A DNA stretch of 42,458 bases, taken from the NCBI GenBank assembly GCA_000155715.1, contig DS990612.1, positions 1,972 to 44,429 of the forward strand, in the 5' to 3' direction. How positions within the stretch are numbered: the first letter of the stretch is position 1; the number at the start of each line of letters is the position of its first letter. The translations under genes and the position numbers were made by a program. Below the pieces are notes generated by a model. It did not search any database. It was not told where the DNA came from and worked only from the letters and a program-made list of their open reading frames with translations. The stretch comes from a gamma proteobacterium HTCC5015 (lineage in GTDB: Bacteria; Pseudomonadota; Gammaproteobacteria; HTCC5015). Positions 9,880-37,545 of this stretch are shown here, in pieces.

Positions 9880-11142
9880 ATGAAAATTCAGGAACTCGTT
9901 AAAAATGCCGGCACACTGACGGTGGGAAATGGCATTTCCCAGGCAACTTCACTGATTGGCCTGGTTGTGCTGGCACGGTACTACAGCCCGGAGCAATTTG
10001 GTTTTTTGGCATTAGTGGTCGGTGTGTCGACCATCACTGGAATCGCTGCATCAGCTCGATACGAGCTGACGATCCTTTTGCCCAAAAGCAGCAAGCACGC
10101 AATGATTGCCAGGATGGCTTCGCTGGCCGTCTCTATATTTTCGCACGTAGTGTTGTTGCTAGTGCTTTCGGGTATGGCAAAATTTAACCTCTTGATCAAT
10201 GAATTCAGTACGGTACTTTTTATAGTGCTGATATCGGCTGGAAGCAGCTTGGTTAACATAAGCTCATTTGTGCAAAATCGGGAAAGCAGATACGCAACCA
10301 CTGCTATTGTGCAAATCATGAAGGCTTTGATGACATTTGGAGTGTCCTGGAGTGTTGCATATACCGAGTACAGTGAAAAGGGTCTTGTAATAGGCCTGAC
10401 CGTATCATCATCTGTCTTGTTAGTGTATTTATCCCTGACGGAATTCGGGCTTAAAAATCTGGCTGCCATTCAAAGAAATAGATTACCATGGCTGAGAGGG
10501 TGGCTAAAAAGGCACATAAAGTTTGTCAAATATTCTCTACCAGCCGTCTTTGTTAACAATCTTTCAACACAGGCTCCTGTGTTTTTATTGGCAGCCTTCT
10601 ATGGTCAGGGCTTGGCTGGCGTTTTCAGTGTTCTGATGCGAGTGATTATGGCACCCATGGTTTTGGTTGCCGGCGCATTCAATCGCATATACATGAGGAC
10701 AGTCAGTGAGAGGCGGGCGGTCGGCCAAAAAATATCAAAAGTAACTGCAGGTGTGTCGGGTGTTGCGCTAGTCCCCGCATTAGGTGCCGCGACAGTATTG
10801 TTATCACTGTCAAAGTTCTATGGATTCGAGCAATTGATGGGCAGTGAGTGGCAGGCCATCGATGTGTATCTTCTGGTTTTTCTTCCCATGATGTTAACCG
10901 GGTTTGTTAGTAAAAGTGTTGCCGGCTTTGCTGTACTTGGTAAAAATGAATTGGGCCTTTTTTACCAATTTATTGTGCTGGTCGCAGTCGTTTCATCAAT
11001 TTGCATCGCTGATTATTTCGGGTTGAGTGGAGACAGTGCAGTAAGAGCATTGGCTTTTACATTGGTGCTAACCAATTTGATTCAATACTCAATGATTATA
11101 TATGTGACTAAAACAGTAGACAGGGTGGCAGGCCATGGGTAA
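9880..11142 (+). CDS. wzx: Oligosaccharide-lipid flippase, Wzx type (first of two)
   Basis: A 420-residue integral membrane protein with about twelve hydrophobic segments and no large soluble domain. The N-terminus (ARYYSPEQFGFLALV, then RYELTILLPKSS) is typical of the polysaccharide transport/MOP family, whose Wzx members move undecaprenyl-linked repeat units to the periplasm. The ATG follows the previous stop directly, and the gene overlaps the next one by 8 bases. A second flippase at 26291 shares the general N-terminal pattern (RLYAPEEFGFFGVYM, GRYELAILIPK) but is clearly different. Specificity cannot be read from sequence. Confidence 0.88.
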   Translation: MKIQELVKNAGTLTVGNGISQATSLIGLVVLARYYSPEQFGFLALVVGVSTITGIAASARYELTILLPKSSKHAMIARMASLAVSIFSHVVLLLVLSGMAKFNLLINEFSTVLFIVLISAGSSLVNISSFVQNRESRYATTAIVQIMKALMTFGVSWSVAYTEYSEKGLVIGLTVSSSVLLVYLSLTEFGLKNLAAIQRNRLPWLRGWLKRHIKFVKYSLPAVFVNNLSTQAPVFLLAAFYGQGLAGVFSVLMRVIMAPMVLVAGAFNRIYMRTVSERRAVGQKISKVTAGVSGVALVPALGAATVLLSLSKFYGFEQLMGSEWQAIDVYLLVFLPMMLTGFVSKSVAGFAVLGKNELGLFYQFIVLVAVVSSICIADYFGLSGDSAVRALAFTLVLTNLIQYSMIIYVTKTVDRVAGHG

Positions 11143-12145
11143 AGAGAAGCAGCCCGTATTTATAGTTTCTTCAGAAAGAAGCGGTACCAATCTGCTAAGG
11201 AGAAGGCTCAGCGAATCACAGTCTGCCTATTATGGGCCGGCGCCACTTCATTTGCTAAAGCACTTTTTTTATAGGGAGCAAGCCTATGGTGATCTCGGAG
11301 ACGACCGAAATTTTGTAGCCCTCGTTCGCGACTGTCTTGGTTTGGCATACGCTCATTTTTCACCATGGGATGAAGATATCAGCGTGGATGAAGTGATCGC
11401 GGAATACGATCACCTGGCAACAAGCTGTGGAAGATCAGCCATTGGCTTGATGCATGTGATCAACACAATATATGCAAGACGAAAAGGTTACGATTCTTAC
11501 ATATGCAAAGACAATAATCTCTTTGATTATGTGTACCCGATCGCAATGGGCATACCGGGCGCAAAATTTATTTTTCTATACAGAGATGCCAGGGATGTGG
11601 TCGTTAGTCAGCTTAAGAGGCCAACGCAGATTAAAAGTGTTTTGTATCTATCAACACTCTGGAAGGATGAGCAGGAAAAAATTATTCAGGCAATGGGTTT
11701 TCCGCCCCTTGAGAAACGTTCTTTCTCAATCAGCTATGAAGACTACGTCACTGATGAAAAAAAACACCTGAAAAGTATGTGTGATTTTTTAAACGTTGAA
11801 ATGGTCTCGTCTAAAGAAGGTGCGCGCCATTCAAGCGAGAAGGCGGATATTCAGGAGTGGGAAAATCTAAATAAGCCCACTATGAAAAATAATTTTGGAA
11901 AGTACAGTGAGAGCCTTAGCCAAAAGCAAATTACGATGGTCGAGTCTATTGCAAAAAGGCAAATGCTTCGCCTTGGGTATCGGCCTGAGTACGCTGTAAG
12001 AAATAAAAGCCAATATCAGGTAAAAGCCATTATCTTCATGGCCAAAGTATGGCGGCTGATAAAAAACAAACTGGGCCTTTTGTCAAAGACAAAAGGGCAG
12101 AGTGACAGGGAGCGTTACATTGCATCGTTGGATAGAATGACATGA
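11135..12145 (+). CDS. Sulfotransferase family protein 1
   Basis: Likely transfers sulfate from PAPS to a sugar hydroxyl or amine. The 336 residues have no signal peptide or clear membrane segment. The PAPS 5'-phosphosulfate loop is VSSERSGTNLLRRRL (11-25), and the 3'-phosphate-binding segment is FLYRDARDVVVSQLKR (147-162, with Arg150 and Ser158), the expected pair for cytosolic-type sulfotransferases. It overlaps the flippase by 8 bases and the next sulfotransferase by ATGA, so the two are probably translated together. The acceptor is unknown; Stf0-like or LPS/EPS sulfotransferases are the nearest class. Expression with the Wzx and wbp genes points to a repeat-unit sugar acceptor. Confidence 0.8.
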   Translation: MGKEKQPVFIVSSERSGTNLLRRRLSESQSAYYGPAPLHLLKHFFYREQAYGDLGDDRNFVALVRDCLGLAYAHFSPWDEDISVDEVIAEYDHLATSCGRSAIGLMHVINTIYARRKGYDSYICKDNNLFDYVYPIAMGIPGAKFIFLYRDARDVVVSQLKRPTQIKSVLYLSTLWKDEQEKIIQAMGFPPLEKRSFSISYEDYVTDEKKHLKSMCDFLNVEMVSSKEGARHSSEKADIQEWENLNKPTMKNNFGKYSESLSQKQITMVESIAKRQMLRLGYRPEYAVRNKSQYQVKAIIFMAKVWRLIKNKLGLLSKTKGQSDRERYIASLDRMT

Positions 12146-13080
12146 TACGCCGGAAGTTCGAAAAATTGTTTTTTATGATGGCGGGTGCAGTGTTGGCTCC
12201 CCTTTATTGTTGTCGTAAAGGTCACCAGGAAGACAGCTTAAATCAGCCCGTTTTCATCATAGGCGCCCCAAGAACGGGGTCGACTGTGTTGTACCAAGCA
12301 CTGACTAATTGTTATGAAGTTGCATATATAGATAATCTGGCGGCTGTTTTTTATAAAAACCTTCCATTCGGCATATGGTTGTCAGAAAAAATATTTGGTA
12401 TGAAGCCTCACAACACGTTCAAATCAAAATTTGGCAACACTCGTGAATACGGTTGGCACGCGCCCAGTGAATGTGGTCAATTCTGGTACCGCTGGCTTCC
12501 CCTTGATGATCACTATGTAGACAGAGGTCAGTTTTCAGCTTCAGCAGTCACCGAGATTCATGATGAGATTGTGTCCTGCCAAAGGGTTTCGGGCTTGCCT
12601 ATGTTGTTCAAAAACCTGAATGCCGGGCAGCGACTTCGGCTGATTGCTGATGCTTTTCCTGAGGCCAAAATCATTTACCTCAAGCGAGATCCCCGTTTCA
12701 CGTCTGCTTCCATTCTGAAGGCCAGAAAGGAAAATCATATCAAGGAGGGGGAGTGGTGGAGTGTAAAGCCAAAAAACTTTCGCCAGCTTATGGCACTGAG
12801 CGAGGTCGAAATGGTAGTGGCTCAGGTTTACTATCTGGAGCATCAAATAGAGAAAGATCTGTCTCTTTTTTCTGAGAGAAACACGTTAAGGCTGCACTAT
12901 AATGAACTGAGTGAGGGCGTTGTAAGAAAAATTGGAAATTGGCTGAATATGGATGAAAAGAGCGGGGCCGAGGTGCCTGAATTCTATCGCGATAGCGACA
13001 AAAAAATGGATAAAGAGCTTATGGGTCAAATCAGCGGGATGGTTGAAGCGTATCCCTTCCCGGGAGATGTGCCCGAATGA
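12142..13080 (+). CDS. Sulfotransferase family protein 2
   Basis: A second, divergent sulfotransferase of 312 residues. A hydrophobic N-terminal stretch (about 9-23) may anchor it to the membrane. The PAPS loop FIIGAPRTGSTVLYQAL is at 38-54 and the 3'-phosphate segment IYLKRDPRFTSASILKARK at 178-196 (Arg182, Ser188/Ser190). It differs from its neighbour throughout, so the pair probably modifies different positions or sugars. It starts in an ATGA overlap with the previous gene and ends in another ATGA overlap with the next. The acceptor is not predictable. Confidence 0.8.
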   Translation: MIRRKFEKLFFMMAGAVLAPLYCCRKGHQEDSLNQPVFIIGAPRTGSTVLYQALTNCYEVAYIDNLAAVFYKNLPFGIWLSEKIFGMKPHNTFKSKFGNTREYGWHAPSECGQFWYRWLPLDDHYVDRGQFSASAVTEIHDEIVSCQRVSGLPMLFKNLNAGQRLRLIADAFPEAKIIYLKRDPRFTSASILKARKENHIKEGEWWSVKPKNFRQLMALSEVEMVVAQVYYLEHQIEKDLSLFSERNTLRLHYNELSEGVVRKIGNWLNMDEKSGAEVPEFYRDSDKKMDKELMGQISGMVEAYPFPGDVPE

Positions 13081-14012
13081 AGGACGTCTATCGAAAGCTT
13101 TGCAGTGACAATGATCACATCCCCCTGTTTCAACAGGCCTGGTGGCTTGATGCTACAGCTGGCGATCATTGGAGTGTTGCTCTGGTAGAAAAGGGCGGAA
13201 AGATTCAGGCAGCCATGCCATACATGATCAAAAAACGGTTTGGCCTGACTGTTATCACTCAACCGCCGCTAACCCAGTACTTGGGCCCGTGGATATTGCC
13301 TGCACAGTCTAAACGAGCAAAGCAATTATCCAGAGAGAAAGACCTGATGCAGGCTCTGGTCGATCAATTGCCTCAATATCATATATACCGCCAAACCTGG
13401 TCGCCGGATTATCAAAACTGGATGCCTTTTTACTGGCGGGGTTTTGCTCAAACAACTCGATACAGCTACCGCATTGAAAACCTCTCGAATCTTGATGAAG
13501 TGTGGGGTGGTTTTCAAGCCGGGATAAGGAGCGATATTCGCAAGGCACAGAAACAAGGGGTTGTGGTAGAGCGTAGTGCGGACCTCAGTACCTTTCTTTC
13601 TTTGAATGAGATGGTGTTTAAACGTCAGGGGCGTGCCGCGCCACACCCGGAAAGCTTGGTCAAAAATATTGATGAAGCCGCCGCATCCCGGAACCAGAGA
13701 GCCATTTTTATTGCCGCTGATGAAGAAGGCCGCAGCCATGCCGCCGTTTACCTCGTTTGGGATCAGCACAGCGCCTATTATCTTATGGGTGGCGGAGATC
13801 CGGAGCTAAGGAATAGCGGTGCCACCAGCCTCTGCCTGTGGGAGGCAATTCAGTTTGCTGCCACAGTTACCCGCTCTTTCGATTTTGAAGGATCCATGAT
13901 CGAGCCGGTTGAGCGTTTTTTTCGTGCGTTCGGTGGCGAGCCTGTGCCGTTTTATTCCCTTTCAAGGGCGCACAACCGTTGGCTAAATCTCGCTATGAGT
14001 ATCCGGAGCTAG
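13077..14012 (+). CDS. FemAB-like GNAT acyltransferase (Acetyltransf_6 type)
   Basis: A 311-residue soluble protein of the FemAB/BioF2-like GNAT superfamily. The C-terminal half is typical: AAVYLVWDQHSAYYLMGGG near 221-239, then the signature DFEGSMIEPVERFFRAFGG at 269-287. Relatives in exopolysaccharide loci are thought to transfer acyl or aminoacyl groups to amino sugars, and FemAB-like genes often neighbour polysaccharide deacetylases, as here. It overlaps the preceding sulfotransferase by ATGA, and the next ATG follows its stop after one base. The donor could be acetyl-CoA, another acyl-CoA or aminoacyl-tRNA; the sequence does not decide. Confidence 0.75.
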   Translation: MKDVYRKLCSDNDHIPLFQQAWWLDATAGDHWSVALVEKGGKIQAAMPYMIKKRFGLTVITQPPLTQYLGPWILPAQSKRAKQLSREKDLMQALVDQLPQYHIYRQTWSPDYQNWMPFYWRGFAQTTRYSYRIENLSNLDEVWGGFQAGIRSDIRKAQKQGVVVERSADLSTFLSLNEMVFKRQGRAAPHPESLVKNIDEAAASRNQRAIFIAADEEGRSHAAVYLVWDQHSAYYLMGGGDPELRNSGATSLCLWEAIQFAATVTRSFDFEGSMIEPVERFFRAFGGEPVPFYSLSRAHNRWLNLAMSIRS

Positions 14013-14013
14013 C

Positions 14014-15369
14014 ATGAAGATCCACCGTCAACGCCTGAAATGGATGGAGCAATTACTGGCTGACCGCTTTGGGAAAAGCTGGCTCATTACGGAAAAGAGC
14101 AGCAGCCTTGTCCTGGAGCTGCAAGGAGAGGCTGGGGGAGTTGTGTTCGACCAGCTTGAAAAAGCGTTCATGCAAACGGGCGTTCCTGTGCAGCTGGGGT
14201 GTGAGTGGTGGCTGATCGATAATAAATGGACATCGCCAGTAGATGAGTCGCGGCTCCCCGCCCCCTCCTCGGCGCCTCTTTCGCTCCCGCTGATACATTT
14301 GTCGCAAAATAGGGCAACGTGTCACTACGACATACTGGGTCTCGCTTTCTGGGCTATGAACCGCCTGGAGGAAATTGGGTCAGTCAATCTGGACAGTCAC
14401 GACAGATTTTGTGCTTCAGAATCCCATGCGGAAAAGTTTGAATATTTGAATCGTCCATTGGTCGATGAATGGCTCCATATTCTTGGCCAGGTCATAAGTA
14501 CGGTTTGGCCGCAAATTGAACTGAAGGAAAATACTTTTGACTTCCTTCTTTCTCATGATGTGGACAGACCGTCGAGGTACGGGTTTCAGTCCGCAAAGGG
14601 GCTTATTCGCTCAATGGCTGCCGACTTTTTAAAAAAGCGGGATTACAGGACGGTTTTTATCGGCCCACTGGTTCGCCTGAACACGAAACAGGCCCTTCAC
14701 CCTAAAGACCCCTTTAATGCTTTCGACTGGATGATGAGCCAGTCAGAAAGGGCAGGGGTACAGAGCACCTTTAATTTTATTAGCGATACCAACTTTGGCC
14801 AGCACGAGGCGGGTTACAAGTTGGAATACCCGGCAATAAGAAGCTTGATAAGAACCATCCATGAACGAGGTCACGAATTGGGCTTGCATCCGAGTTACCG
14901 CTGCTACCTTCAGCCAGAACGAATTCAGCATGAATTTATCCGTCTGAAGCAGATTTGTCAGGAAGAGGATGTGATGCAAGAGCGCTGGGGTGGCCGTATG
15001 CACTATCTCCGCTGGTCCCAGCCTGAAACCCTGCGTGCACTCGATGGTGTCGGCTTGTCCTTTGACAGCTCGCTAGGGTTTGTCGATAAAGCCGGATTCC
15101 GTTGTGGAACCTGTTTCAGTTTTACGCCGTTCGATGCATTGACCAACGAGAGCTTTACCCTTCGGGAGCAACCTCTTGTTGTCATGGAAGCCAGCATTCT
15201 TTCCGAGCGATACATGGGGATCAGGGATTCCGCTCAAGCGCTGACCATGATGGAAGACTTGAAAGGAAAATGTCGAAAGTTGGGGGGAGGGTTCAGCTTG
15301 CTTTGGCATAACTCGGAGTTGTGGCATAAAAGCCAGAGGGACCTGTACTGCGAGGTTCTCGACTTGTGA
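14014..15369 (+). CDS. Polysaccharide-deacetylase-fold protein, cytoplasmic
   Basis: 451 residues with no signal peptide. About 175 N-terminal residues of unrecognised type precede a NodB-like region. Visible metal/catalytic motifs are LLSHDVDRPSRYG (His181, Asp182, Asp184) and RGHELGLHPSYR (His287, His292), followed by SLGFVDKAGFRCGTC. This is the layout of the large polysaccharide deacetylase-like proteins of exopolysaccharide clusters. It may de-N-acetylate a lipid-linked sugar on the cytoplasmic side. The gene sits in a tight cassette with two sulfotransferases and a FemAB-like transferase, which suggests an exposed amine is modified next. Its stop overlaps the GTG of the next gene. Deacetylase activity is inferred. 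Confidence 0.75.
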   Translation: MKIHRQRLKWMEQLLADRFGKSWLITEKSSSLVLELQGEAGGVVFDQLEKAFMQTGVPVQLGCEWWLIDNKWTSPVDESRLPAPSSAPLSLPLIHLSQNRATCHYDILGLAFWAMNRLEEIGSVNLDSHDRFCASESHAEKFEYLNRPLVDEWLHILGQVISTVWPQIELKENTFDFLLSHDVDRPSRYGFQSAKGLIRSMAADFLKKRDYRTVFIGPLVRLNTKQALHPKDPFNAFDWMMSQSERAGVQSTFNFISDTNFGQHEAGYKLEYPAIRSLIRTIHERGHELGLHPSYRCYLQPERIQHEFIRLKQICQEEDVMQERWGGRMHYLRWSQPETLRALDGVGLSFDSSLGFVDKAGFRCGTCFSFTPFDALTNESFTLREQPLVVMEASILSERYMGIRDSAQALTMMEDLKGKCRKLGGGFSLLWHNSELWHKSQRDLYCEVLDL

Positions 15370-16586
15370 TCCCGTACGCCTTGAATAAAGAGAAAATGGT
15401 GCAGTGGCTGGCTGCCATCGCATTGCTGCTGCTTTTCCCCGGCTTTTACTTTTACCACCAGGCGGTCGCTGCGGGCCTGATTCCGAGTGTTCTTGGTGGC
15501 TTTTATTCGCCGGTTTCCCTTGTATTGCTCTTGGTATACTGCTTCACCATCGGCCAGGCTGCCAGGAAAGTGCCCTGCGCCACTGGCTACACCTTTGCTT
15601 TGGGCACCTTGCTCATTTGGATGGTTTTCTGGGCTTTCTACAGTGCAGGAGCCCAAGCGCCCCAGCATCACTCTGAGGCTTTGCTTCAGCTTGGCCGAGC
15701 ATTTTTGGCTTGGGGGGCGTTGTTCTTTACTGGCCTCTACCTCGAACCTCGACAGCGCACATTGAAAGGGTGGGCGCTGGCGGCCGGTCTGGTGATTTTT
15801 CTGAGCTTGCTGCTCTATGTTCTACAGACAGGGCGCATTATCTATTACGCCGCCCAACTTCATCAGACCGACAATGAAATTGTGGCCACCTACCAGGGTT
15901 TTGCGAGAAGTGCCTTGATTACCAGTTTCCTGTTGGTGGCAGTCAGCCGTCATCTATGGGCGCAATTATTGATTTCTTCTCTCGCTTTCTTTGTGCTTTT
16001 TGTACTTTCAGCAAGAAGCGAATTTGTGGCCTTGGCATTCAGTCTGGGTTTTTTCTTCTCCATCAGGTCATGGCAACAAACATCGAGGGTTGTAGTACCT
16101 ATTGTCGTTTTTCTCTTCTCTGTCCTTTTTGCCTACTATTTCTTTGATGTCATCACTGAGAGTCGGCACTTCCGGATGACCGATCTCGCTCACGACAGCG
16201 CCTGGCAGGCGAGAATCCTCTCCATACAGGAGGCATGGGGGCGAATAAAAGAGCAGCCTTTAACGGGACAGTTTGCTGGACACTTTACAGGCAGCGTACA
16301 CAATCTGTACGCACATAATGTGTTGAGTGTATGGGATGGTTACGGTTTTTGGGCATTTACTTTGTTTCTTTTTGTTACAGGGTTTCCGGCTGGTCATGCC
16401 GCCTATATCGCTTTCTTTAGCCCGCGGCTTACCCCCTTGGAAGTATTTTACTGCCTCGTGGCATGGACCTGTTTGCTACTGATGCTCGTGTCAAAATCGA
16501 TGTATTGGGTTTTGCCGGGCCTGTCGTGGGGTCTTTATGTGAATGTCAAACACAGGCGACGTGGGTTGAAAGGAGAGCCGAAATGA
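15366..16586 (+). CDS. wzy: O-antigen/EPS polymerase-like membrane protein, Wzy type (first of two)
   Basis: A 406-residue polytopic protein with about eleven hydrophobic helices and a periplasm-sized loop (about 270-320) containing SVHNLYAHNVLSVWDGYG. That loop resembles the HN-containing motif of the O-antigen ligase/polymerase superfamily. Wzy proteins polymerise flipped repeat units; WaaL ligases share the fold, but the position beside wzx and glycosyltransferases favours a polymerase. The start GTG overlaps the previous TGA, and the stop overlaps the next ATG (ATGA). A second such protein lies at 31029. Confidence 0.8.
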   Translation: MIPYALNKEKMVQWLAAIALLLLFPGFYFYHQAVAAGLIPSVLGGFYSPVSLVLLLVYCFTIGQAARKVPCATGYTFALGTLLIWMVFWAFYSAGAQAPQHHSEALLQLGRAFLAWGALFFTGLYLEPRQRTLKGWALAAGLVIFLSLLLYVLQTGRIIYYAAQLHQTDNEIVATYQGFARSALITSFLLVAVSRHLWAQLLISSLAFFVLFVLSARSEFVALAFSLGFFFSIRSWQQTSRVVVPIVVFLFSVLFAYYFFDVITESRHFRMTDLAHDSAWQARILSIQEAWGRIKEQPLTGQFAGHFTGSVHNLYAHNVLSVWDGYGFWAFTLFLFVTGFPAGHAAYIAFFSPRLTPLEVFYCLVAWTCLLLMLVSKSMYWVLPGLSWGLYVNVKHRRRGLKGEPK

Positions 16587-17722
16587 ATCAACAGGATGAA
16601 AATGCCACAAAAGTGGCTCATCTAACCAGCGCTCATGGAAGGTTCGATACAAGAATCTACCTGAAAGAGTGTAAGTCACTGGCAGCTAACGGGTTCGATG
16701 TTTCACTGGTGGTCGCTGACGGGCTGCCCGACGAATCTCGAGACGGTATTCAGTTTTACGGCGTTGAAAAAGGTCAAAGCCGGTATACTCGAATGAGAAG
16801 ATCATCACGTCTTGTTTATTTGAAAGCAAAAAGCCTTAAGGCAGACGTCTATCATTTACACGACCCTGAGTTATTGCCCTATGCTCTGAAGCTCCAAAAG
16901 CAGGGTGCCCGTGTCATTTTTGATGCACATGAGGATTTGCCCAAACAACTGTTGTCCAAGCCCTACATTAACCCGCTTGTAAGGCGTGCGATCGCTTGGT
17001 TATTAGGTGTTTACGAAGCCTATGTATGCCGTCGGCTCTCTGGCGTGATAACCGCAACGCCAACCATCAGGGACAAGTTCGCCAAAATCAACACCACCAC
17101 CACAGACATCAATAATTATCCATTGCTGGGTGAGCTATCGACAGAGAGCAGTGACTGGGTAAGGAAAAGCCCCAGTGTTTGCTACATTGGAGGCATCAGC
17201 ACAATCCGTGGTTGTGCCGAACTCGTTGAGGCCATGCAGTCAGTGGGAGGCCCTGTCAAGCTCCAAATGGCGGGTAACTTTACGGACAGCACGATTGAAT
17301 CCCGGTGCAAGCAGTCAGGCGGCTGGGAGCGAGTGAATTATCTGGGATATCTAAATCGCGAGGAAGTACGCGACCTTCTAGCTGTATCCATGGCCGGTCT
17401 GGTGACCTTTTATCCATCACCTAACCACGTTGATGCTCAGCCCAACAAGATGTTCGAATACATGAGTTCCGGAATCCCAGTCATTGGCTCACGTTTCCCG
17501 CTCTGGCAAGAGATCATTGAAGGCAATAACTGCGGTATTTGTGTTGATCCGCTCGACCCAGAAGAAGTGGCTAAGGCAATCAGCTTTATTGTCCAGAATC
17601 CCGACACGGCAGAAAGTATGGGTGAGAATGGGAAAAGAGCGGTAGAGGAGCGTTACAATTGGGGTGTTGAAGAAAAACGTCTGATTGATTACTACACTAA
17701 ATTGAATGAGCGTACATCATGA
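16583..17722 (+). CDS. Glycosyltransferase family 4 (GT-B fold)
   Basis: A 379-residue retaining glycosyltransferase. The N-terminal domain shows VAHLTSAHGRFDTRIYLKEC and DVYHLHDPELLPYAL. The C-terminal nucleotide-sugar domain has YLGYLNREEVRDLL and the GT4 motif MFEYMSSGIPVIGSRFP. The ATG at 16583 is chosen because AAGGAG lies 7 bases upstream and it forms an ATGA overlap with the wzy stop; an in-frame ATG at 16463 would overlap wzy by over 120 bases. The position just before the wbpI homologue matches that of wbpH in P. aeruginosa O5. Donor and acceptor are unknown, though a diacetamido-uronate donor is plausible from the operon. Confidence 0.85.
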   Translation: MNQQDENATKVAHLTSAHGRFDTRIYLKECKSLAANGFDVSLVVADGLPDESRDGIQFYGVEKGQSRYTRMRRSSRLVYLKAKSLKADVYHLHDPELLPYALKLQKQGARVIFDAHEDLPKQLLSKPYINPLVRRAIAWLLGVYEAYVCRRLSGVITATPTIRDKFAKINTTTTDINNYPLLGELSTESSDWVRKSPSVCYIGGISTIRGCAELVEAMQSVGGPVKLQMAGNFTDSTIESRCKQSGGWERVNYLGYLNREEVRDLLAVSMAGLVTFYPSPNHVDAQPNKMFEYMSSGIPVIGSRFPLWQEIIEGNNCGICVDPLDPEEVAKAISFIVQNPDTAESMGENGKRAVEERYNWGVEEKRLIDYYTKLNERTS

Positions 17723-18801
17723 AAATATTGACCATCATCGGTGCCAGACCGCAATTTATAAAGGCAAGTGTGGTGTCACGCGCCATCAAGAAATCCAGTG
17801 GTATTGAAGAGGTTGTGGTGCATACAGGGCAACACTTTGATCAAAACATGTCGGATGTTTTTTTTGACCAGCTGGACATATCTCCACCCGACTATCAGCT
17901 TGATATACACGGCGGTAGCCATGGCTCCATGACCGGGAAGATGCTGGAAAGCCTAGAAGCTGTCATGCTTGAAACTCGGCCAGATCGGGTTCTGGTGTAC
18001 GGCGATACTAACTCAACGCTCGCGGGTGCACTGGCAGCGGCCAAATTGCATATTCCGGTCGCTCATGTGGAGGCCGGTCTACGCAGTTTCAATATGAAAA
18101 TGCCCGAAGAGATTAATCGCATCGTGACAGACCAGGTGAGTGATTTGTTGTTTTGTCCCACTCAAGAGGCCGTAAAAAACTTATCTACAGAAGGTTTTGA
18201 TCATAAGCCGGTACACATTATGAATGTGGGCGATGTTATGCAGGATGCGGCGATATTATTTGCCAATCATGCGAGTGTCCCAAAAGGCCTTCAAGGGGAG
18301 GAAGGGTTTGTTTTGGCTACCTTGCATCGTGCCGAAAATACTGACAACTGCGACAGGCTGTCGAGTATTGTTGAGGCACTGAATCGTGTGCACGAAAAAG
18401 TGACGAAAGTGATTTTGCCGCTCCATCCCCGAACCCGCGCTTGCATAAAAAAACAGGGCCTGAGTCTTAACGTTGAAACTATAGATCCGGTTGGCTATTT
18501 TCAAATGGTTGGATTGCTCAGCGCGTGTGGCTTGGTGCTCACCGACAGTGGCGGCGTACAAAAAGAGGCTTATTTTTTTAACAAGCCCTGCGTGACGATG
18601 CGTGATCAAACAGAGTGGGTTGAGTTAATTGAAGTAGGGGCCAATGTATTGGCAGGGGCCGATAGCGGCAGAATTTTCGATGGAGTCGTAGAAAATTTGG
18701 GCCGTACGATCGAAGACACCAATGAGCTTTATGGCGGCGGGCGAGCTTCTGGCCGAATTGTGCAAGAGCTTCTGGACAAGGCCAATGCGCCCTCACAGTA
18801 A
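17719..18801 (+). CDS. wbpI: UDP-2,3-diacetamido-glucuronate 2-epimerase (WbpI), WecB-like
   Basis: A 360-residue non-hydrolysing UDP-sugar 2-epimerase. Motifs are IIGARPQFIKASVVSRAI at the N-terminus, VYGDTNSTLAGALAAAK, HVEAGLRSFNMKMPEEINR, and a C-terminal LTDSGGVQKEAYFFNKPCV. WbpI converts UDP-GlcNAc3NAcA to UDP-ManNAc3NAcA. The complete wbpA-B-D-E set upstream and the GARPQFIK N-terminus favour this over WecB (UDP-GlcNAc to UDP-ManNAc, usually GTRPE). It starts in an ATGA overlap and its end overlaps the next gene by 17 bases. A second epimerase of this superfamily at 34323 is the FnlC type and is distinct. Confidence 0.85.
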   Translation: MKILTIIGARPQFIKASVVSRAIKKSSGIEEVVVHTGQHFDQNMSDVFFDQLDISPPDYQLDIHGGSHGSMTGKMLESLEAVMLETRPDRVLVYGDTNSTLAGALAAAKLHIPVAHVEAGLRSFNMKMPEEINRIVTDQVSDLLFCPTQEAVKNLSTEGFDHKPVHIMNVGDVMQDAAILFANHASVPKGLQGEEGFVLATLHRAENTDNCDRLSSIVEALNRVHEKVTKVILPLHPRTRACIKKQGLSLNVETIDPVGYFQMVGLLSACGLVLTDSGGVQKEAYFFNKPCVTMRDQTEWVELIEVGANVLAGADSGRIFDGVVENLGRTIEDTNELYGGGRASGRIVQELLDKANAPSQ

Positions 18802-22600: not shown

Positions 22601-23569
22601 ATGGTTCACTTTGATGTTTTCAATGGCGACGCTGACGGCATCGGTTCTTTGATTCAGTTGCGCTTGATCAATCCGCGACAGTCTTCCCTGATTACTGGGG
22701 TTAAGCGTGACATTGCTTTGCTTAAGCATGTGCCTATTAATGCGCCATTGAGCGTAACCGCGTTAGATATTAGTTTGGCAAAAAATCGAGAAGCGGTAGA
22801 TGCTTTGCTGAGTGCTGGCTCAAGCATTGATTACATTGACCATCACGCCTTTGGCGACTCACTGCCAGATCACCCCAGTTTTTCTGCTCAGATAGAAACA
22901 GCTCCGACGACCTGCACGGGGCTGTTAGTGAATCACCGATTAAATCGTCGCTTTGAAAATTGGGCGATTGTTTGCGCTTTCGGAGATAATTTAAACCAAG
23001 TCGCCACGGGCTTGGCGCAAGCGAAAGGGCTGAACGTACTGCAGACAGAAAACTTGCAAAAACTGGGTGTCGCCATGAACTATAACGCCTACGGCAGTAC
23101 GATCGAAGACTTACACTACCATCCGGCAGATCTTTATCGAAAGTTGGTGAATTATGCCGATCCACTCGATTGTATTGAAGATGGAAGCTCCGTTTGGAAG
23201 CCTTTGCACAGGGCCTATCTAGAGGATATGGAGAAGGGTTTGGGCGCCCCAGTGGTCAGTGAGAGCGAAACCGCATTTGCTGTCGAGTTGCCCGACGAGG
23301 CTTGGTCGCGTCGCGTGAGTGGGGTTCTCGGCAATGAGTTGGCCAATCAAAGTCCTGATAAAGCGGTGGCCATACTCAGTCACAATGCCCAAAGTGGTTA
23401 CACCATCAGCATACGCGCCCCCTTGAATAACCGTCATGGTGCTTCTGATTTGGCGGGCCAATTTCCCACCGGTGGCGGGCGCGCAGCTGCTGCGGGTATC
23501 AATCAGCTCGATTCCAGTGATGTGGAGCCCTTTTTTAAGGCTTTGCACCGTCACTGGTCGATGGTTTAG
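22601..23569 (+). CDS. DHH/DHHA1 family phosphoesterase
   Basis: A 322-residue cytoplasmic metal-dependent phosphoesterase. The N-terminal DHH domain has FDVFNGDADGIGS (4-16), the metal-ligand region TALDIS (53-58) and the name-giving YIDHHAFG (78-85). The C-terminal DHHA1 signature is PTGGGRAAAAG (289-299). Relatives include NrnA, which degrades nano-RNA and dephosphorylates 3'-phosphoadenosine 5'-phosphate (PAP), and also RecJ and PPX1-type enzymes. The neighbour is APS kinase and sulfotransferases flank it on both sides, so PAP hydrolysis is an attractive but unproven role. It starts after a divergent promoter region and ends 134 bases before cysC. Confidence 0.82.
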   Translation: MVHFDVFNGDADGIGSLIQLRLINPRQSSLITGVKRDIALLKHVPINAPLSVTALDISLAKNREAVDALLSAGSSIDYIDHHAFGDSLPDHPSFSAQIETAPTTCTGLLVNHRLNRRFENWAIVCAFGDNLNQVATGLAQAKGLNVLQTENLQKLGVAMNYNAYGSTIEDLHYHPADLYRKLVNYADPLDCIEDGSSVWKPLHRAYLEDMEKGLGAPVVSESETAFAVELPDEAWSRRVSGVLGNELANQSPDKAVAILSHNAQSGYTISIRAPLNNRHGASDLAGQFPTGGGRAAAAGINQLDSSDVEPFFKALHRHWSMV

Positions 23570-32182: not shown

Positions 32183-33187
32183 ATGATTTCTGTGTATTTA
32201 ATTACTGGTGGAACAGGCTCTTTTGGTAAGGCCATGGTGGATTACCTGTTGGCTCATGGCGCGCCTGAGATTCGCATCCTTAGCCGCGACGAGGCCAAGC
32301 AAGAGGAGATGCGTATTGCCTACGGGCGGTCTGAGCTCAAGTTTTTTATTGGTGATGTGCGCGATCGAGCCTCGGTGGACAAAGCGATGAAGGGCGTGAG
32401 CATGGTGTTCCATGCGGCGGCGCTCAAGCAGGTGCCCTCCTGTGAATTCTTCCCCATGGAGGCGGTGAAGACCAACATCCAGGGCAGCCAGAATGTGATC
32501 GACAGCGCCGTGGAAGCGGGCGTGGAAAGCGTGGTGTGCCTGAGTACCGACAAGGCGGTGATGCCTGTGAATGCCATGGGCATGTCCAAGGCCATGATGG
32601 AAAAGGTGGCCCAGGCCTCCAGCCGTCAGCTGGGTGAGGGTGATACGGTGATTTCCTGCGTGCGCTACGGCAATGTGATGTGCTCTCGCGGTTCGGTGAT
32701 TCCGCTGTTTATCAAGCAGATTCAGGAAGGCAAGCCACTGACCATTACCGAACCCACCATGACGCGCTTTATGCTGTCCCTTGAGGACGCCATCAAACTG
32801 GTGCACTTTGCCTTTGAAAATGCACGCCAGGGAGACATTTTTGTCCGCAAGGCACCGGCCTGTACGGTGCAGATGCTGGCGGAAGTGCTGGTAGACCTCT
32901 TTGAGGCAGATAACGAGGTGCAGGTTATTGGCTGGCGCCATGGCGAAAAGCTCTACGAAACGCTGGCCAGTGCTGAAGAGCTGCTGCGTTCCGAAGACAT
33001 GGGTGACTACTATCGAGTCAGCTACGATAGCCGCGATCTCAACTACGCCAAGTTTTTTACTGAGGGCAAGGTGGAAGAGACCAGTACTGAGGACTACCAT
33101 TCCCACAACACCTACCAGCTCACGCGCGAGGAGCTGAAATCATTGTTGCTGACACTGCCAGAAGTGCAGGCAGCGCTTGAGCACTGA
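32183..33187 (+). CDS. fnlA: UDP-GlcNAc 4,6-dehydratase/5-epimerase, FnlA/WbjB/CapE family
   Basis: The first step to UDP-L-FucNAc: inverting 4,6-dehydration of UDP-GlcNAc. The 334-residue extended-SDR protein has the Rossmann motif LITGGTGSFGKA (6-17), HAAALKQVPSCEFFPMEA (78-95), and the altered triad of this subfamily: Ser121 in STDKAV and Met132/Lys136 in AMGMSK, with Met in place of the usual Tyr. AAAGG stands 6 bases before the ATG. The genes for the next two steps follow immediately. Its first 40 or so bases are AT-rich like the upstream block, and the rest is GC-richer. Confidence 0.93.
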   Translation: MISVYLITGGTGSFGKAMVDYLLAHGAPEIRILSRDEAKQEEMRIAYGRSELKFFIGDVRDRASVDKAMKGVSMVFHAAALKQVPSCEFFPMEAVKTNIQGSQNVIDSAVEAGVESVVCLSTDKAVMPVNAMGMSKAMMEKVAQASSRQLGEGDTVISCVRYGNVMCSRGSVIPLFIKQIQEGKPLTITEPTMTRFMLSLEDAIKLVHFAFENARQGDIFVRKAPACTVQMLAEVLVDLFEADNEVQVIGWRHGEKLYETLASAEELLRSEDMGDYYRVSYDSRDLNYAKFFTEGKVEETSTEDYHSHNTYQLTREELKSLLLTLPEVQAALEH

Positions 33188-33197
33188 GGAGTTTGCG

Positions 33198-34310
33198 ATG
33201 AAAACGGTTATCACAGGTTCGGCAGGCTTGCTGGGATGGCACCTGCGTTGCTACCTGAGCGTGCTAGATGGTTGGAAAGATCAAGTGGTGGCGCTGGATC
33301 GCCAGAGCTTTAACGATGAGGCCACGCTGGTTTCCGCCCTAGAAGGTGCTGATGTGGTCGTGCACTGCGCGGGTGTCAATCGCGCCGATGACAGCGAGTT
33401 GGAACAAGGTAATATAGCCTTGGCCCAACGTTTGGTGGATGGGTTGGTCGCTGCAGGCAGCACTCCCCATGTGGTCTATGCCAATACCATTCACAAACAT
33501 AAGGGCACTCCCTACGGCCGCGGCAAGGCGGGTGCCGACAGAGTGTTTCGTGAGGGTGTTGAGAAAAGTGGCGCTCGCTATACCGAGCTGGTACTGCCCC
33601 ACGTGTTTGGTGAGGGTGGTCGACCTTTTTACAATTCCGCGACACTGACGTTCTGCCAGCAAATTGTGAATGGCGAACCGCTCAATATTCATCCAGGTGG
33701 TCAGCTGGAATTGCTCCATGCTCAAGATATTTGTGTCGAATTGGTGAGTGCGGTAGAGCGTGGGCACAGTGGTGAGTTGCGCTTGAAGGGGCGCACTGTT
33801 ACTCCGGCAGAAGTGGCGGGCAAGTTGGAGTCCATGCACGCAAGTTACACGAACCATGTGATGCCCGATTTGCGAGAGGGTTTTGACCTGCAATTGTTTA
33901 ATACTCTGCGTTCATTTCTTTACCCTGCTCACTACCCCGTGGCGTTAAAGCTCAATACAGACAATCGCGGCTCTTTGTTCGAAGCGGTCAAGGCCGACAA
34001 CGGTGGCCAGGCGTTTCTCTCCACCACCAAGCCTGGCATTACACGGGGCAATCATTTTCACTTTGGCAAAGTAGAGCGATTTTTGGTCATTCGAGGCGAG
34101 GCCGTGATTCGTTTACGCCGTTTGTTTGATGATGAAGTGACAGAGTTTCGAGTGTCGGGCAGTGAGCCGGTATATGTCGACATGCCCACTCTACACACCC
34201 ACAACATTACCAATGTGGGGGATGAAGAGCTGATGACGATGTTCTGGAGTCATGAGATTTTTGATCCAGAAAACCCCGATACATACTTTCTGCCCGTTGG
34301 GCAGGAATAG
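33198..34310 (+). CDS. fnlB: UDP-2-acetamido-2,6-dideoxy-hexulose 4-reductase, FnlB/WbjC/CapF family
   Basis: The second step to UDP-L-FucNAc: C3 epimerisation and NADPH reduction of the FnlA product. The 370-residue protein has an N-terminal short SDR domain (VITGSAGLLGWHL, 4-16) and a C-terminal cupin domain with GNHFHFGKVERFLVIRGEA, as in CapF, where the cupin does the epimerisation and the SDR the reduction. TGAGGAG 6 bases upstream supports ATG 33198; an in-frame ATG at 33177 would overlap fnlA. The product pairs with the epimerase 13 bases downstream. Confidence 0.92.
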   Translation: MKTVITGSAGLLGWHLRCYLSVLDGWKDQVVALDRQSFNDEATLVSALEGADVVVHCAGVNRADDSELEQGNIALAQRLVDGLVAAGSTPHVVYANTIHKHKGTPYGRGKAGADRVFREGVEKSGARYTELVLPHVFGEGGRPFYNSATLTFCQQIVNGEPLNIHPGGQLELLHAQDICVELVSAVERGHSGELRLKGRTVTPAEVAGKLESMHASYTNHVMPDLREGFDLQLFNTLRSFLYPAHYPVALKLNTDNRGSLFEAVKADNGGQAFLSTTKPGITRGNHFHFGKVERFLVIRGEAVIRLRRLFDDEVTEFRVSGSEPVYVDMPTLHTHNITNVGDEELMTMFWSHEIFDPENPDTYFLPVGQE

Positions 34311-34322
34311 CGAGAGCGAACT

Positions 34323-35468
34323 ATGAAAGTAATGACCATACTGGGCACGCGTCCCGAGATTATTCGCCTTTCACGCGTGATGGCCGCATTGGACGAGGTC
34401 GTTGAGCATAAAATTGTCCACACCGGGCAAAATTACGACTACGAACTCAATGATGTGTTTTTTGAAGAGTTGGGTGTGCGCCGCCCCGATCATTTTTTGA
34501 ATGCCGATACATCGTCTCTCGGGCGTTGCCTAGGTGACATTCTAATTAAAACAGAAGCGGTGTTGCTAGAGGAAAAGCCCGATGCGGTGTTGGTCTTAGG
34601 TGATACCAACAGTGCGATAGCGACCGTGATGGCAAAGCGGATGAAAGTACCCACCTATCATATGGAGGCAGGCAATCGTTGCTTCGATGCCAATGTGCCG
34701 GAGGAAATTAACCGAAAGTTGGTGGATCATACGGCAGATTTTAATTTGGTTTACACAGAACATGCCCGCCGCCACTTGATTAGCGAAGGCTTGTCTCACC
34801 GTTTTATTTATCTAACGGGGTCGCCTATGCGAGAGGTGCTAGAACACTCTTTAGACAAAATAAAACACTCGAATGTGCTTGAAGAGCTTGGCTTGCAGAC
34901 GGGGCAGTTTTTTATTGTCAGTGTGCACCGCGAAGAAAATGTCGATAGCAAGGCAAGCCTGGAAAAAGTAGTAGAGGCGTTGCAAGCGGTACATGAGGCT
35001 TTTGGTTTGCCCGTGGTGGTGTCGACGCACCCGAGAACGCGAAATCGTCTTGAAAAGCTCGGAGCTTTAGAGCAGTCGGGCGATATTCGCTTCCTTAAGC
35101 CCTTTGGGTTTTTTGATTACAACTGTTTGCAAATGGCATCTTTTTGCGCCATTTCTGATAGCGGCACTATTAGCGAAGAGTCTTCCATTCTGGATTTTCC
35201 TGCAGTCACCTTGCGCCGCTCCATTGAGCGCCCCGAAGCGCTGGATACGGGGGCGATCGCGTTAACCGGTTTAGACGCTGAAGCCTTGGTTGACGGTATT
35301 AAGGTTGCCACCGCGTCGAGGTCGGTCTTCTCTAATACGGAGCCAGAGGTGCCCGAAGATTACCAAGTGCGCAACACTTCTGAACGCGTGGTGCGCCTGA
35401 TTACAGGCACCGCCAAGTTGACGAGTCGCTGGCGCAATATGGATGAGTTCAGTCGCTATGACTGGTAG
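34323..35468 (+). CDS. fnlC: UDP-N-acetyl-L-fucosamine-forming 2-epimerase, FnlC/WbjD/CapG family
   Basis: The last step: C2 epimerisation of UDP-2-acetamido-2,6-dideoxy-L-talose to UDP-L-FucNAc. A 381-residue non-hydrolysing epimerase with ILGTRPEIIRLSRVM, HTGQNYDYELNDVFFEELG, VLGDTNSAIATVMAKRM, HMEAGNRCFDANVPEEINR and CAISDSGTISEESSI. GNRCFD, in place of GLRSFN in the wbpI homologue, is characteristic of the CapG/WbjD branch. The end overlaps the next gene by 11 bases. Adjacent fnlA-fnlB-fnlC is a conserved order, as in P. aeruginosa O11 (wbjBCD) and S. aureus cap5/8EFG. Confidence 0.94.
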   Translation: MKVMTILGTRPEIIRLSRVMAALDEVVEHKIVHTGQNYDYELNDVFFEELGVRRPDHFLNADTSSLGRCLGDILIKTEAVLLEEKPDAVLVLGDTNSAIATVMAKRMKVPTYHMEAGNRCFDANVPEEINRKLVDHTADFNLVYTEHARRHLISEGLSHRFIYLTGSPMREVLEHSLDKIKHSNVLEELGLQTGQFFIVSVHREENVDSKASLEKVVEALQAVHEAFGLPVVVSTHPRTRNRLEKLGALEQSGDIRFLKPFGFFDYNCLQMASFCAISDSGTISEESSILDFPAVTLRRSIERPEALDTGAIALTGLDAEALVDGIKVATASRSVFSNTEPEVPEDYQVRNTSERVVRLITGTAKLTSRWRNMDEFSRYDW

Positions 35469-36690
35469 GGGGCGCAGCGGCTCTAGGCCGTTGCGCATTT
35501 TGGCGATTCATCGTTACTACTGGCCTGATGCGCCGCCTTACGCCTCTATGTTGAGGCGTATTGTGTCTTCATGGCAGCAAGTTGGCCATCAGGTTGACGT
35601 GCTCTCGTCTCAGCCGTCTTATAAGGCGGCACTGGAGAATCAGAAGCGTCCAGCCAGTGAAAGATTAGATGGTGCCCGTGTGTCTCGCCTGTCGTTGCCC
35701 AGCGAGTCTGGGCGCCCCGTGGTACGTATTTTGAATGCGCTGAAATTGTGCGCCGCTATCTGGTGTAAGGCGCTGCTGGGTCGTCGTTACGATGTGATTA
35801 TGGTGTCGACGGCGCCGCCGGTTCTGGCAGGGTTTGCCTGTGCCTTAGTGGCTAGGCTAAGAGGCTCTCGATTTATCTATCACTGCATGGACATACACCC
35901 TGAAATTGGACGGATTTCTGGGGAGTTTCGCAACCCAGTAGTCTTTCGCACTTTGCAGGCGATGGACCGCTGGAGTTGCCGTCAGGCGCGTCCTGTTGTG
36001 GTGTTGTCAGACGATATGCAGCACGCCCTAGAAAACCGCAAAGCAGGCGATACGCTGGAGATAGCCGTCATCAATAATTTTAGCTTGCCCTCTGATGAAG
36101 AGGTCTGTGAGAAACTGCCGTTTACCATGGAAAGAAACGGTTTTAATTTGATTTTTGCAGGCAACATCGGCCGCTTTCAAGGATTGGAGGCGTTGATTAA
36201 GGCCATGGCATTATTGTCTGATCGCCCAGATATTCGGTTGATTCTGATGGGTGAGGGGGCGGCTAAAAGTGAGTTAGAATCGCTGGCTCGAGAGCTTGAA
36301 GCCAATGTTCATTTTGTGGGGCACCATCCAGTGTCCGTGGCTAAGCTCGCTATGCAAAAAGCCGATGCAGGTTTTGTTAGCCTTGCCTCCGATATTTATC
36401 GGTACGCGTACCCCAGCAAAACGATGACCTATCTTGAACAAGGGTGTCCGCTATTAGTGGCTGTCGAGCCGGAGAGTCGTTTGGCAAAAGAAGTGCTTGA
36501 AAATCAATTGGGTGCAGCGGTTTCGGCGGGTGATGGTGATTCCATTGCCCAGGGGATTCTGTCAATGGCTGATGATTCCAGTCAGCTGCAGCAAGCCAAA
36601 ATGAACGCCGAGAGTTGGGGGCGTAAAAACTACTCAGAAAGTGAAGTGTTGCCGTTGTGGCAGGCACTGCTGGAAAGTCCGAGCAAATAA
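35458..36690 (+). CDS. wbuB: Glycosyltransferase family 4, WbuB/WbjE-like (probable L-FucNAc transferase)
   Basis: A 410-residue GT4. The N-terminal domain opens RILAIHRYYWPDAPPYASML and includes YHCMDIHPEIGRIS; the C-terminal domain has FAGNIGRFQGLEALIKAM and YPSKTMTYLEQGCPLLVAV. WbuB/WbjE/CapL-type enzymes next to fnlABC transfer L-FucNAc to an undecaprenyl-PP-linked HexNAc, which fits the PglC-like initiating enzyme two genes on. ATG 35458 is chosen (11-base overlap, GGATGAG upstream); ATG 35443 is also possible. Donor assignment rests on gene order. Confidence 0.87.
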   Translation: MTGRGRSGSRPLRILAIHRYYWPDAPPYASMLRRIVSSWQQVGHQVDVLSSQPSYKAALENQKRPASERLDGARVSRLSLPSESGRPVVRILNALKLCAAIWCKALLGRRYDVIMVSTAPPVLAGFACALVARLRGSRFIYHCMDIHPEIGRISGEFRNPVVFRTLQAMDRWSCRQARPVVVLSDDMQHALENRKAGDTLEIAVINNFSLPSDEEVCEKLPFTMERNGFNLIFAGNIGRFQGLEALIKAMALLSDRPDIRLILMGEGAAKSELESLARELEANVHFVGHHPVSVAKLAMQKADAGFVSLASDIYRYAYPSKTMTYLEQGCPLLVAVEPESRLAKEVLENQLGAAVSAGDGDSIAQGILSMADDSSQLQQAKMNAESWGRKNYSESEVLPLWQALLESPSK

Positions 36691-36693
36691 ACT

Positions 36694-37545
36694 ATGAATC
36701 GTCTTATTATTATTGGCGCACCGCGCTCAGGCACGAATATGTTGAGAGATGTGCTGACTTCACTGCAGGGTATTGAGACTTGGCCCTGCGACGAGATTAA
36801 CTACATCTGGCGCCATGGTAATGTGCGCTACCCCTCCGATGAAATTCCCGCCGATCGCGCTACGCCCGCTGTGCAAAAGTACATTCGTGGGCGATTTGAT
36901 TCGATAGCCCACAAAACCGGCGCCGAAGTTGTGGTTGAAAAAACCTGCGCTAGCTCTCTGCGGGTGCCCTTTGTCGACAAGATTGTGCCAGAAGCCCGTT
37001 ATGTATTTATCTACCGCGACGGCATCGATGCTACGGGATCGGCCAAGCTACGCTGGACGGCCAGGTTAGATATTCCTTATATTCTGGAAAAAGTGCGCTT
37101 TGTGCCCAAGTTAGATTTGCCATACTACGCACTACGCTATTTTTGGTCGCGCTTCTATCGCCTGTTTTCCCGAGATAAGCGCCTGGCTTTTTGGGGGCCA
37201 GCGTTGGATAACATGCAAGATATCCTGCAAAAACACACACTCGATGAAGTGTGTGCTCTTCAGTGGCAGCGTTGCGTGGATCAGTCTGAAAAGGCATTTT
37301 CCAGTATGCCTGCAGACAAGGTGATTCGCGTGCGTTACGAGGATTTTGTGCAGTCTCCAAGGGATGAGCTCAAGCGCGTGCTGGACTTTATGGGGCGGGA
37401 GGTATCCGATGATAAGATTGCCGCTGCTGTCTCGTCGGTTTCTGCCAAAAGCCTAGGTAAGGGAAGGCAGTCGTTGGGTGAAGATCAAGTGCGCTCACTG
37501 GAAAAGCTAGTGGGGGAGACGCTAAAGCGTTATGACTACCTCTGA
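36694..37545 (+). CDS. Sulfotransferase family protein 4
   Basis: A 283-residue sulfotransferase. The PAPS 5' loop IIIGAPRSGTNMLRDVL is at 5-21, and the 3'-phosphate segment YVFIYRDGIDATGSAKLRW at 103-121 (Arg108, Ser116). No signal peptide. It starts 3 bases after the WbuB-like gene and overlaps the initiating transferase by 14 bases, so it lies inside what is elsewhere a contiguous fnlABC-GT-PGT core. It therefore probably sulfates the disaccharide made by those enzymes, for example the L-FucNAc, but this is inference. Composition matches its neighbours rather than the AT-rich block. Confidence 0.83.
   Translation: MNRLIIIGAPRSGTNMLRDVLTSLQGIETWPCDEINYIWRHGNVRYPSDEIPADRATPAVQKYIRGRFDSIAHKTGAEVVVEKTCASSLRVPFVDKIVPEARYVFIYRDGIDATGSAKLRWTARLDIPYILEKVRFVPKLDLPYYALRYFWSRFYRLFSRDKRLAFWGPALDNMQDILQKHTLDEVCALQWQRCVDQSEKAFSSMPADKVIRVRYEDFVQSPRDELKRVLDFMGREVSDDKIAAAVSSVSAKSLGKGRQSLGEDQVRSLEKLVGETLKRYDYL

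Follow-up and report, generated by a model that had tools for sequence, protein, structure and literature searches.

Two described gene clusters join sulfotransferases to the supply of their sulfate donor, 3′-phosphoadenosine 5′-phosphosulfate (PAPS), and we compare these and related systems here, as far as the consulted parts of each report describe them, with a locus of the gamma proteobacterium HTCC5015. This locus lies in a stretch of 42,458 nucleotides (hereafter, the window; positions 1972-44429 of contig C16, DS990612.1, in a 98.9% complete assembly of 2.63 Mb and 30 contigs), in which polysaccharide genes surround a cassette of a DHH/DHHA1 phosphoesterase gene, cysC and a permease gene. 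The closest analogue that we found is the cassette of cysN/C, cysD (ATP sulfurylase), cysQ and a sulfate permease gene in the capsule cluster of Cobetia marina KMM 1449, which also has sulfotransferase and Kps ABC export genes (PMC11766843). The capsule cluster of Vibrio sp. KMM 8419 contains three sulfotransferase genes and cysND with cysC; cysNDC have second genomic copies, the polymer was shown to contain sulfated rhamnose, and the combination of a sulfated capsule with in-cluster PAPS genes is termed a hallmark (PMC11641403). The synechan (xss) cluster of the cyanobacterium Synechocystis 6803 shares with the window its Wzx/Wzy-type genes and sulfotransferases, of which it has two, and a term search of the main text found none of “PAPS,” “APS kinase” or “permease” (PMC8205485). 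For the removal of the by-product 3′-phosphoadenosine 5′-phosphate (PAP), the relevant protein is the archaeal PAP phosphatase MtPAPP of Methanothermococcus thermolithotrophicus (PDB entry 8a8k), whose gene lies close to those of ATP sulfurylase and the kinase of adenosine 5′-phosphosulfate (APS), a position that led to its discovery, and whose release of phosphate from PAP is highly specific (PMC10322725).

Like the Cobetia cluster, the window contains sulfotransferase and PAPS-synthesis genes and, as predicted here, genes for a sulfate permease and a PAP phosphatase; unlike that cluster, it has no ATP sulfurylase gene that we could find in the locus, a DHH protein stands in the place of CysQ, and the polymer genes are of the Wzx/Wzy type. 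It shares with Vibrio sp. KMM 8419 the presence of several sulfotransferase genes and cysC in one locus, whereas cysND are absent from the locus and cysC has no second full-length copy in the assembly. The window thus combines sulfotransferases with a PAPS-synthesis gene, as the Vibrio and Cobetia clusters do, but not with an in-locus ATP sulfurylase. The original prediction for this DNA, which had recognized a sulfated-polysaccharide locus with its own PAPS supply, was borne out for the sulfotransferases within polysaccharide operons and for cysC and a permease of the type found in sulfate-activation operons; the supply, as predicted, is incomplete, in that no ATP sulfurylase was found in the window. 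It had also held the arrangement to be rare, which is an overstatement in view of the two published clusters and of the presence of the sulfotransferase family PF13469 in 205 of the 369 genomes of our class sample, from which all gene-content counts below were drawn. Taken by itself, the sulfated-polysaccharide part adds one more case to an arrangement already in the literature.

What the prediction had overlooked is the DHH gene at 22601-23569. We propose, with the chances about evenly balanced, that its product belongs to a widespread uncharacterized DHH/DHHA1 family that would provide gammaproteobacterial sulfate-activation operons with their PAP phosphatases. Such an enzyme would be a counterpart of CysQ, neither FIG nor NrnA in type, and would have arisen independently of, or in parallel to, archaeal MtPAPP. 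The protein would be part of a portable permease–CysC–DHH cassette, placed here with a polysaccharide module on either side, both of which it would furnish with PAPS. The genes of the cassette and the four sulfotransferase genes are as follows.

22601..23569, plus strand: DHH/DHHA1 phosphoesterase of 322 amino acids, which we propose to be a PAP phosphatase; it opens the cassette, directly before cysC
23695..24306, plus strand: CysC, APS kinase; NF003013, 315.9 bits (cut-off 163); TIGR00455 above its cut-off
24311..26077, plus strand: permease of the divalent anion:sodium symporter (DASS)/SLC13 type with TrkA_C domains, proposed sulfate importer; PF03600, PF02080 (two stretches) and PF00939
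11135..12145, plus strand: sulfotransferase 1, module A; PF13469, 74.3 bits; motifs SSERSGT/RDARDV
12142..13080, plus strand: sulfotransferase 2, module A; PF13469, 56.3 bits; motifs GAPRTGS/RDPRFT
27552..28544, plus strand: sulfotransferase 3, module B; PF13469, 80.6 bits; motifs GSGRSGT/RDPRDV
36694..37545, plus strand: sulfotransferase 4, module B; PF13469, 82.8 bits; motifs GAPRSGT/RDGIDA

The metal-site motifs I–IV and the GGG motif of DHHA1 are all present in the DHH protein, and the motif FNGDADG, residues D10, D12, D56, D80-H81-H82 and D129 and the GGGR motif were invariant in all 46 aligned sequences. Profile databases recognize the protein poorly: PF02272 (DHHA1) scored 23.1 bits, below its gathering cut-off of 25.9, NCBIfam gave just a weak RecJ match, and the sole match of PF01368 in the genome was a frame on contig C30, not the DHH gene. 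The AlphaFold2 model has a mean predicted local distance difference test score (pLDDT) of 95.4 and supports the DHH plus DHHA1 fold. Its best Foldseek matches in the PDB were both chains of 8a8k (E 4e-13, template modelling score up to 0.67), which ranked ahead of RecJ, NrnA and others. MtPAPP resembles the window protein in having DHH and DHHA1 domains, a similar length and a gene near sulfate-activation genes; it differs in being archaeal and of measured activity (PMC10322725), and the two are 11-13% identical in structural alignments. Entries with the CysQ fold were missing from the structural matches listed for the model, which excludes nothing.

The genomic neighborhood provides the second line of evidence. 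DHH homologues were found in 71 of the 369 class genomes, including that of HTCC5015, and named genomes contained at least 569 relatives; the copies on plasmids are annotated only as “DHH family phosphoesterase” or “hypothetical protein.” In the class sample, for which a stretch of up to ~9.5 kb was fetched on each side and some contigs were short, cysC lay near the DHH gene at 19 of the 71 loci, spanning 14 families by our own tally, where chance would give ~0.4, or 1.9 at the most generous estimate. Among the 80 named-genome loci closest to the window DHH, a set picked by similarity and not a random sample, tblastn placed cysC at 52; a count based on open reading frames (ORFs) gave 49, which is low because spurious ORFs on the opposite strand masked cysC. 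All 49 of these ORF-based pairs were co-directional, as were 11 of the 19 linked pairs in the class sample, the other eight being on opposite strands. The most frequent neighbors within 8 kb in 81 loci (the named set and the window) were CysC (51), SLC13 (28), GalE (24), CysN (23) and CysD (22). GalU (~13) and UDP-glucose dehydrogenase (~11; UDP, uridine diphosphate), both named by eye, occurred near the same 81 loci, and with GalE they indicate that DHH proteins also neighbor nucleotide-sugar genes. At the level of whole genomes, CysC (ten best candidates per genome scored, E 1e-20) was present in 60 of the 71 genomes with DHH homologues and in 161 of the 298 others (p 1.5e-6, relatedness not corrected). 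By title and abstract, among the open-licence PMC papers listed (for one listing, 10 of 87), none on bacterial cysC or sulfation with a DHH protein was found beyond PMC10322725 and the papers on pApase/NrnA, which are other DHH proteins.

When 141 sequences were placed in a FastTree tree, linkage to cysC proved to be clustered, requiring 26 changes against a shuffled mean of ~47, and none of 500 shuffles was as low. Eight of the 71 class loci, for which the ORF caller gave no DHH ORF, were omitted from the tree and the neighbor clustering, leaving 63 and the window. The window DHH fell in a supported set of six, all linked to cysC, its nearest five being four from Marinobacter and one from Pseudomonas. 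Two Marinobacter loci (L119 and L121) have the order DHH-cysD-cysN-cysC-SLC13 (in L121, cysN reads as two ORFs). The order in the window is identical except that cysDN are missing, and its permease shares 68-69% identity with the permeases at four Marinobacter DHH loci. Two further loci are related. An uncultured Methylophaga (L131) has sulfotransferase-Bac_transf-DegT-cysC-DHH in a row, its initiating transferase and DegT matching their window counterparts at 71% and 62% identity, and also contains homologues of the window DUF7033 protein (38%) and of the glycosyltransferase at 18722 (44%). Shewanella sp. KT0246 (L178) has sulfotransferase-Bac_transf-DegT-cysD-cysN-SLC13-cysC-DHH-CapD. The 80 named loci, examined for a strict local replacement of CysQ, showed no CysQ-like ORF near DHH.

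Several results weigh against the proposal. In VIA-align, where rows within 1 Z unit count as tied, RecJ-type entries reached Z values of 22.6-23.4 against 22.1 for 8a8k, with four RecJ-type entries between the best of them and 8a8k, and given these near-equal values the DHH fold alone does not decide the matter. Sequence profiles matched NrnA only at E 0.063-0.085, and 8a8k was not listed for the DHH protein by the sequence-profile search at E ≤ 1. At 52 of the 71 class-sample loci there was no cysC in the stretch examined, nor was there in the stretch shown for two plasmid copies (H1 and H4; two of nine plasmid matches inspected), and linkage of DHH to cysC as a universal rule was rejected. 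A sulfotransferase occurred in just three of the 80 named loci, as counted with a profile that is thin, having only the four proteins of the window behind it (at L122 the PF13469 match was sub-threshold, at 20.4 bits), so the DHH–cysC pair is not generally tied to sulfation. Furthermore, the genome encodes a canonical CysQ on contig C18 (TIGR01331, 315 bits; cut-off 228.8), which means that the cell has no strict need of another PAP phosphatase; the idea that the DHH protein is the sole PAP phosphatase of the genome was rejected on this ground. PF00459 (Inositol_P) had three genome matches, on contigs C12, C18 and C24, and none on C16.

The RecJ tie and the resident CysQ both fit another explanation, in which the DHH protein hydrolyses nanoRNA, the linear diguanylate pGpG or DNA, and the link to cysC reflects the control of biofilm polysaccharide by PAPS and cyclic diguanylate (c-di-GMP). 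PggH, the pGpG-specific phosphodiesterase of Vibrio cholerae, was among the VIA-align matches at Z 16.5. In the consulted part of a report on Vibrio vulnificus, which has a cysDNTC operon, PAPS controls c-di-GMP levels and exopolysaccharide genes (PMC6113621). The top Foldseek match, however, is a PAP phosphatase, PggH was not listed in the sequence searches of the PDB, and the predominance of cysC among the neighbors, with SLC13, cysN and cysD also frequent, points to PAPS metabolism. We consider this explanation unlikely and retain the PAP phosphatase as our proposal.

The other two cassette genes lie, as had been predicted, between the sulfotransferase genes, at 23695-24306 and 24311-26077. 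The CysC translation carries the expected loop motif of an APS kinase, and by eye its start may be at ~23704, downstream of an AAGGAG; a gap of 125 bases separates the DHH gene from cysC. Searching the genome with PF01583 revealed no full-length APS kinase besides CysC, the second match, on contig C15, covering profile positions 2-49 with 20.5 bits (21.3 with in-frame neighbors; cut-off 21.1). The permease scored 236 bits with PF03600 (cut-off 31.9) and exceeded the cut-off of PF00939; with TIGR00785 it scored 119 bits, below the cut-off of 198.6. Its operon context suggests that the substrate is sulfate. Scans for promoters and terminators gave near chance numbers (5 against 4.1 and 9 against 6.8, respectively).

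CysDN and CysH were not found among the window ORFs scanned, in agreement with the prediction for the window; the genome as a whole does have assimilation genes. Contig C14 contains the only ATP sulfurylase (Sat) of the genome, the single match of PF01747, together with a NirA/Sir-type sulfite reductase, a protein that we take to be DUF934-like and a CysH of 206 amino acids; PF01507, which would cover CysD, has a single match in the genome, and this too lies on C14 and resembles CysH. Since no ATP sulfurylase was found in the window, its APS must come from the C14 Sat. That the locus is no assimilation operon, as the prediction further held, does not make its CysC dedicated to sulfation: as the sole full-length APS kinase in a genome whose CysH lacks iron–sulfur (Fe-S) cysteines, the window CysC may also be needed for assimilation. 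It may serve sulfation alone or both routes, and a role in assimilation would count against our proposal.

In the corresponding explanation, CysC and the permease would be ordinary assimilation genes whose place among polysaccharide genes is accidental, CysH would reduce PAPS to sulfite, and the sulfotransferases would share the pool. Besides the lone APS kinase, the CysH itself favors this, matching E. coli-type PAPS reductase structures and lacking the Fe-S cysteine pairs typical of APS reductases. Four genomes of the order were searched, the window's own included; the CysH of three family mates has these pairs, and no CysC was found in the two of them examined for it (G002 and G003). Of 21 genomes with the CysH type of HTCC5015, 17 have CysC, an enrichment that is weak (p 0.064); the other four show no CysC match, so this type of CysH may act on APS, and none of those four matches PF13469 at E 1e-6. 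Moreover, according to the consulted part of a published study, cluster-free APS reductases exist, and an absent cluster hints at the use of PAPS without proving it (PMC2275785). We regard this explanation as a possibility that deserves attention, on balance somewhat doubtful.

Two side observations concern CysH. Short cluster-free homologues, 40-51% identical, occur in genomes G225, G231, G273 and G357 (L220-L223) that have no CysC match, and these are candidates, by their sequences, for Fe-S-free bacterial APS reductases; that of G225 adjoins DUF934-like and sulfite-reductase genes. At L010:11608-12903 (minus strand), between CysH and sulfite-reductase genes, there is an unusual fusion of 431 amino acids, the N-terminal part of which resembles cytidine monophosphate (CMP)-sugar cytidylyltransferases (PseF, KdsB-type) and the C-terminal part ribonuclease-regulator/aldolase proteins, presumably “RraA-like.”

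The four sulfotransferases had been predicted from the two PAPS-binding segments in each, and the family search with hidden Markov models supports all four, with 56-83 bits against a curated gathering cut-off of 27 bits for PF13469. The segments that we take to be the 5′-phosphosulfate-binding (5′-PSB) loop and the 3′-phosphate-binding (3′-PB) motif are legible by eye in all four translations. The proteins are divergent, as predicted, the other three being 20-21% identical to the 12142 protein, and PF13469 had no match in the assembly outside the four genes (five matched places, all within them). In the class sample, CysC was found in 178 of the 205 genomes with PF13469 and in 43 of the 164 without. 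One of the four, the 12142 protein, was modelled, with a poor pLDDT of 54.8; this low-confidence model had 45 PDB matches at E ≤ 0.001, every one a sulfotransferase structure and several PAP-bound, and its top matches, which count as weak evidence given the quality of the model, were a mixture of bacterial, tyrosylprotein, schistosome and heparan sulfotransferases.

The PF13469 family is wide, its acceptors are not predictable from sequence, and together with the mixed kinds of sulfotransferase matched by the model this leaves room for enzymes that act on a lipid, a protein or a small molecule instead of a polysaccharide. Gene arrangement makes this very improbable. All four genes overlap or almost touch co-directional polysaccharide genes: that at 11135 overlaps the flippase gene (9880-11142), that at 12142 overlaps that at 11135, that at 27552 overlaps the second flippase gene, and that at 36694, which begins four bases after a glycosyltransferase gene ends, runs into the initiating transferase gene at 37532. 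A sulfotransferase gene also lies upstream of an initiating transferase gene in the Methylophaga and Shewanella loci. Sugars are thus the acceptors that we favor for sulfate transfer from PAPS by the four enzymes. The remaining genes of the locus, which starts at 3801, are listed below.

3801..7829, plus strand: nucleotide-sugar genes (nucleoside diphosphate-sugar dehydrogenase, Gfo/Idh, hexapeptide acetyltransferase, DegT aminotransferase)
7918..9879, plus strand: acyltransferase-3/SGNH O-acyltransferase
9880..11142, plus strand: flippase (Wzx-like), module A; PF13440; nine transmembrane-like segments
13077..14012, plus strand: GNAT/FemAB-like protein
14014..15369, plus strand: DUF7033 protein; the Methylophaga locus with sulfotransferase, cysC and DHH genes has a homologue (38% identity)
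15366..16586, plus strand: polymerase candidate; Wzy_C, 28.3 bits, under the cut-off of 31.7; six transmembrane-like segments
16463..20020, plus strand: two GT4-type glycosyltransferases and a WecB-type UDP-N-acetylglucosamine (UDP-GlcNAc) 2-epimerase
21376..22431, minus strand: WecA-like initiating transferase; PF00953; TIGR02380, 304 bits, under the cut-off of 326
26291..27562, plus strand: second flippase (Wzx-like), module B; PF13440
30104..32135, plus strand: GT2 glycosyltransferase and polymerase candidate (31029), the latter with seven transmembrane-like segments and no Pfam match
32183..35468, plus strand: FnlA-like dehydratase/epimerase, WbcJ-like reductase and WecB-family 2-epimerase; FnlA and WbcJ models under their cut-offs
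35443..36690, plus strand: GT4-type glycosyltransferase
37532..41377, plus strand: initiating sugar transferase, DegT aminotransferase and CapD-type dehydratase

The window therefore contains two flippase genes (9880 and 26291) and two polymerase candidates (15366 and 31029), and in either half there are two sulfotransferases and a separate initiating transferase (WecA-like at 21376; Bac_transf at 37532), with the cassette between the halves. The locus may make two separate polymers. Going by known pathways, the product of the genes at 3801..7829 is likely a diacetamido-uronic acid, and those at 32183..35468 likely make UDP-N-acetyl-L-fucosamine (UDP-L-FucNAc). At the end of module B, the initiating transferase is 64-71% and DegT 62-65% identical to the Shewanella and Methylophaga homologues, and CapD is 48% identical to a homologue in Shewanella only. 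The guanine-plus-cytosine content of the genes ranges from 0.39 (31029) to 0.61 (the permease), a spread that fits the expectation for a mosaic locus. The locus extends beyond the window, where Poly_export, Wzz/AAA kinase, CpsB/CapC and Wzy_C genes follow.

Three further features were observed in the window. A protein of 440 amino acids (20057-21379), between a glycosyltransferase gene and the WecA-like gene, matched nothing above threshold in Pfam, NCBIfam or the PDB. Inside module B, the gene at 28519-30111 matched PF20254 (N,N-dimethylformamidase beta-subunit-like C-terminal domain) with 147.5 bits. Immediately upstream of the polysaccharide locus, at 61-3565, are genes for tRNA-Ala and for 23S and 5S rRNA.

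In the mechanism that we propose, the SLC13 permease would import sulfate, the single Sat encoded on another contig would make APS, and CysC would phosphorylate APS to PAPS. The four PF13469 sulfotransferases, which are probably cytoplasmic, would then use PAPS on lipid-linked repeat units, two enzymes per polymer module, so that sulfation would take place in the cytoplasm. The DHH/DHHA1 protein would hydrolyse the inhibitory by-product PAP, its presumptive substrate, to adenosine monophosphate (AMP), a task that falls to CysQ in the Cobetia cluster. With some room for doubt, we think it probable that the products of the locus are one or two surface polysaccharides, sulfated and assembled by the Wzx/Wzy route, with the central cassette handling the sulfate donor and the DHH protein clearing PAP.

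If this is true, a function would be provided for a DHH family that occurs in 71 of the 369 class genomes and is matched in NCBIfam just weakly, by RecJ. A PAP-removal step would be added to bacterial sulfation cassettes, and the combination of sulfotransferase, cysC and DHH would serve as a genomic marker for sulfated bacterial polysaccharides. The most useful outcome is a testable proposal, that a widespread DHH family may be the bacterial PAP phosphatase of sulfate-activation operons.

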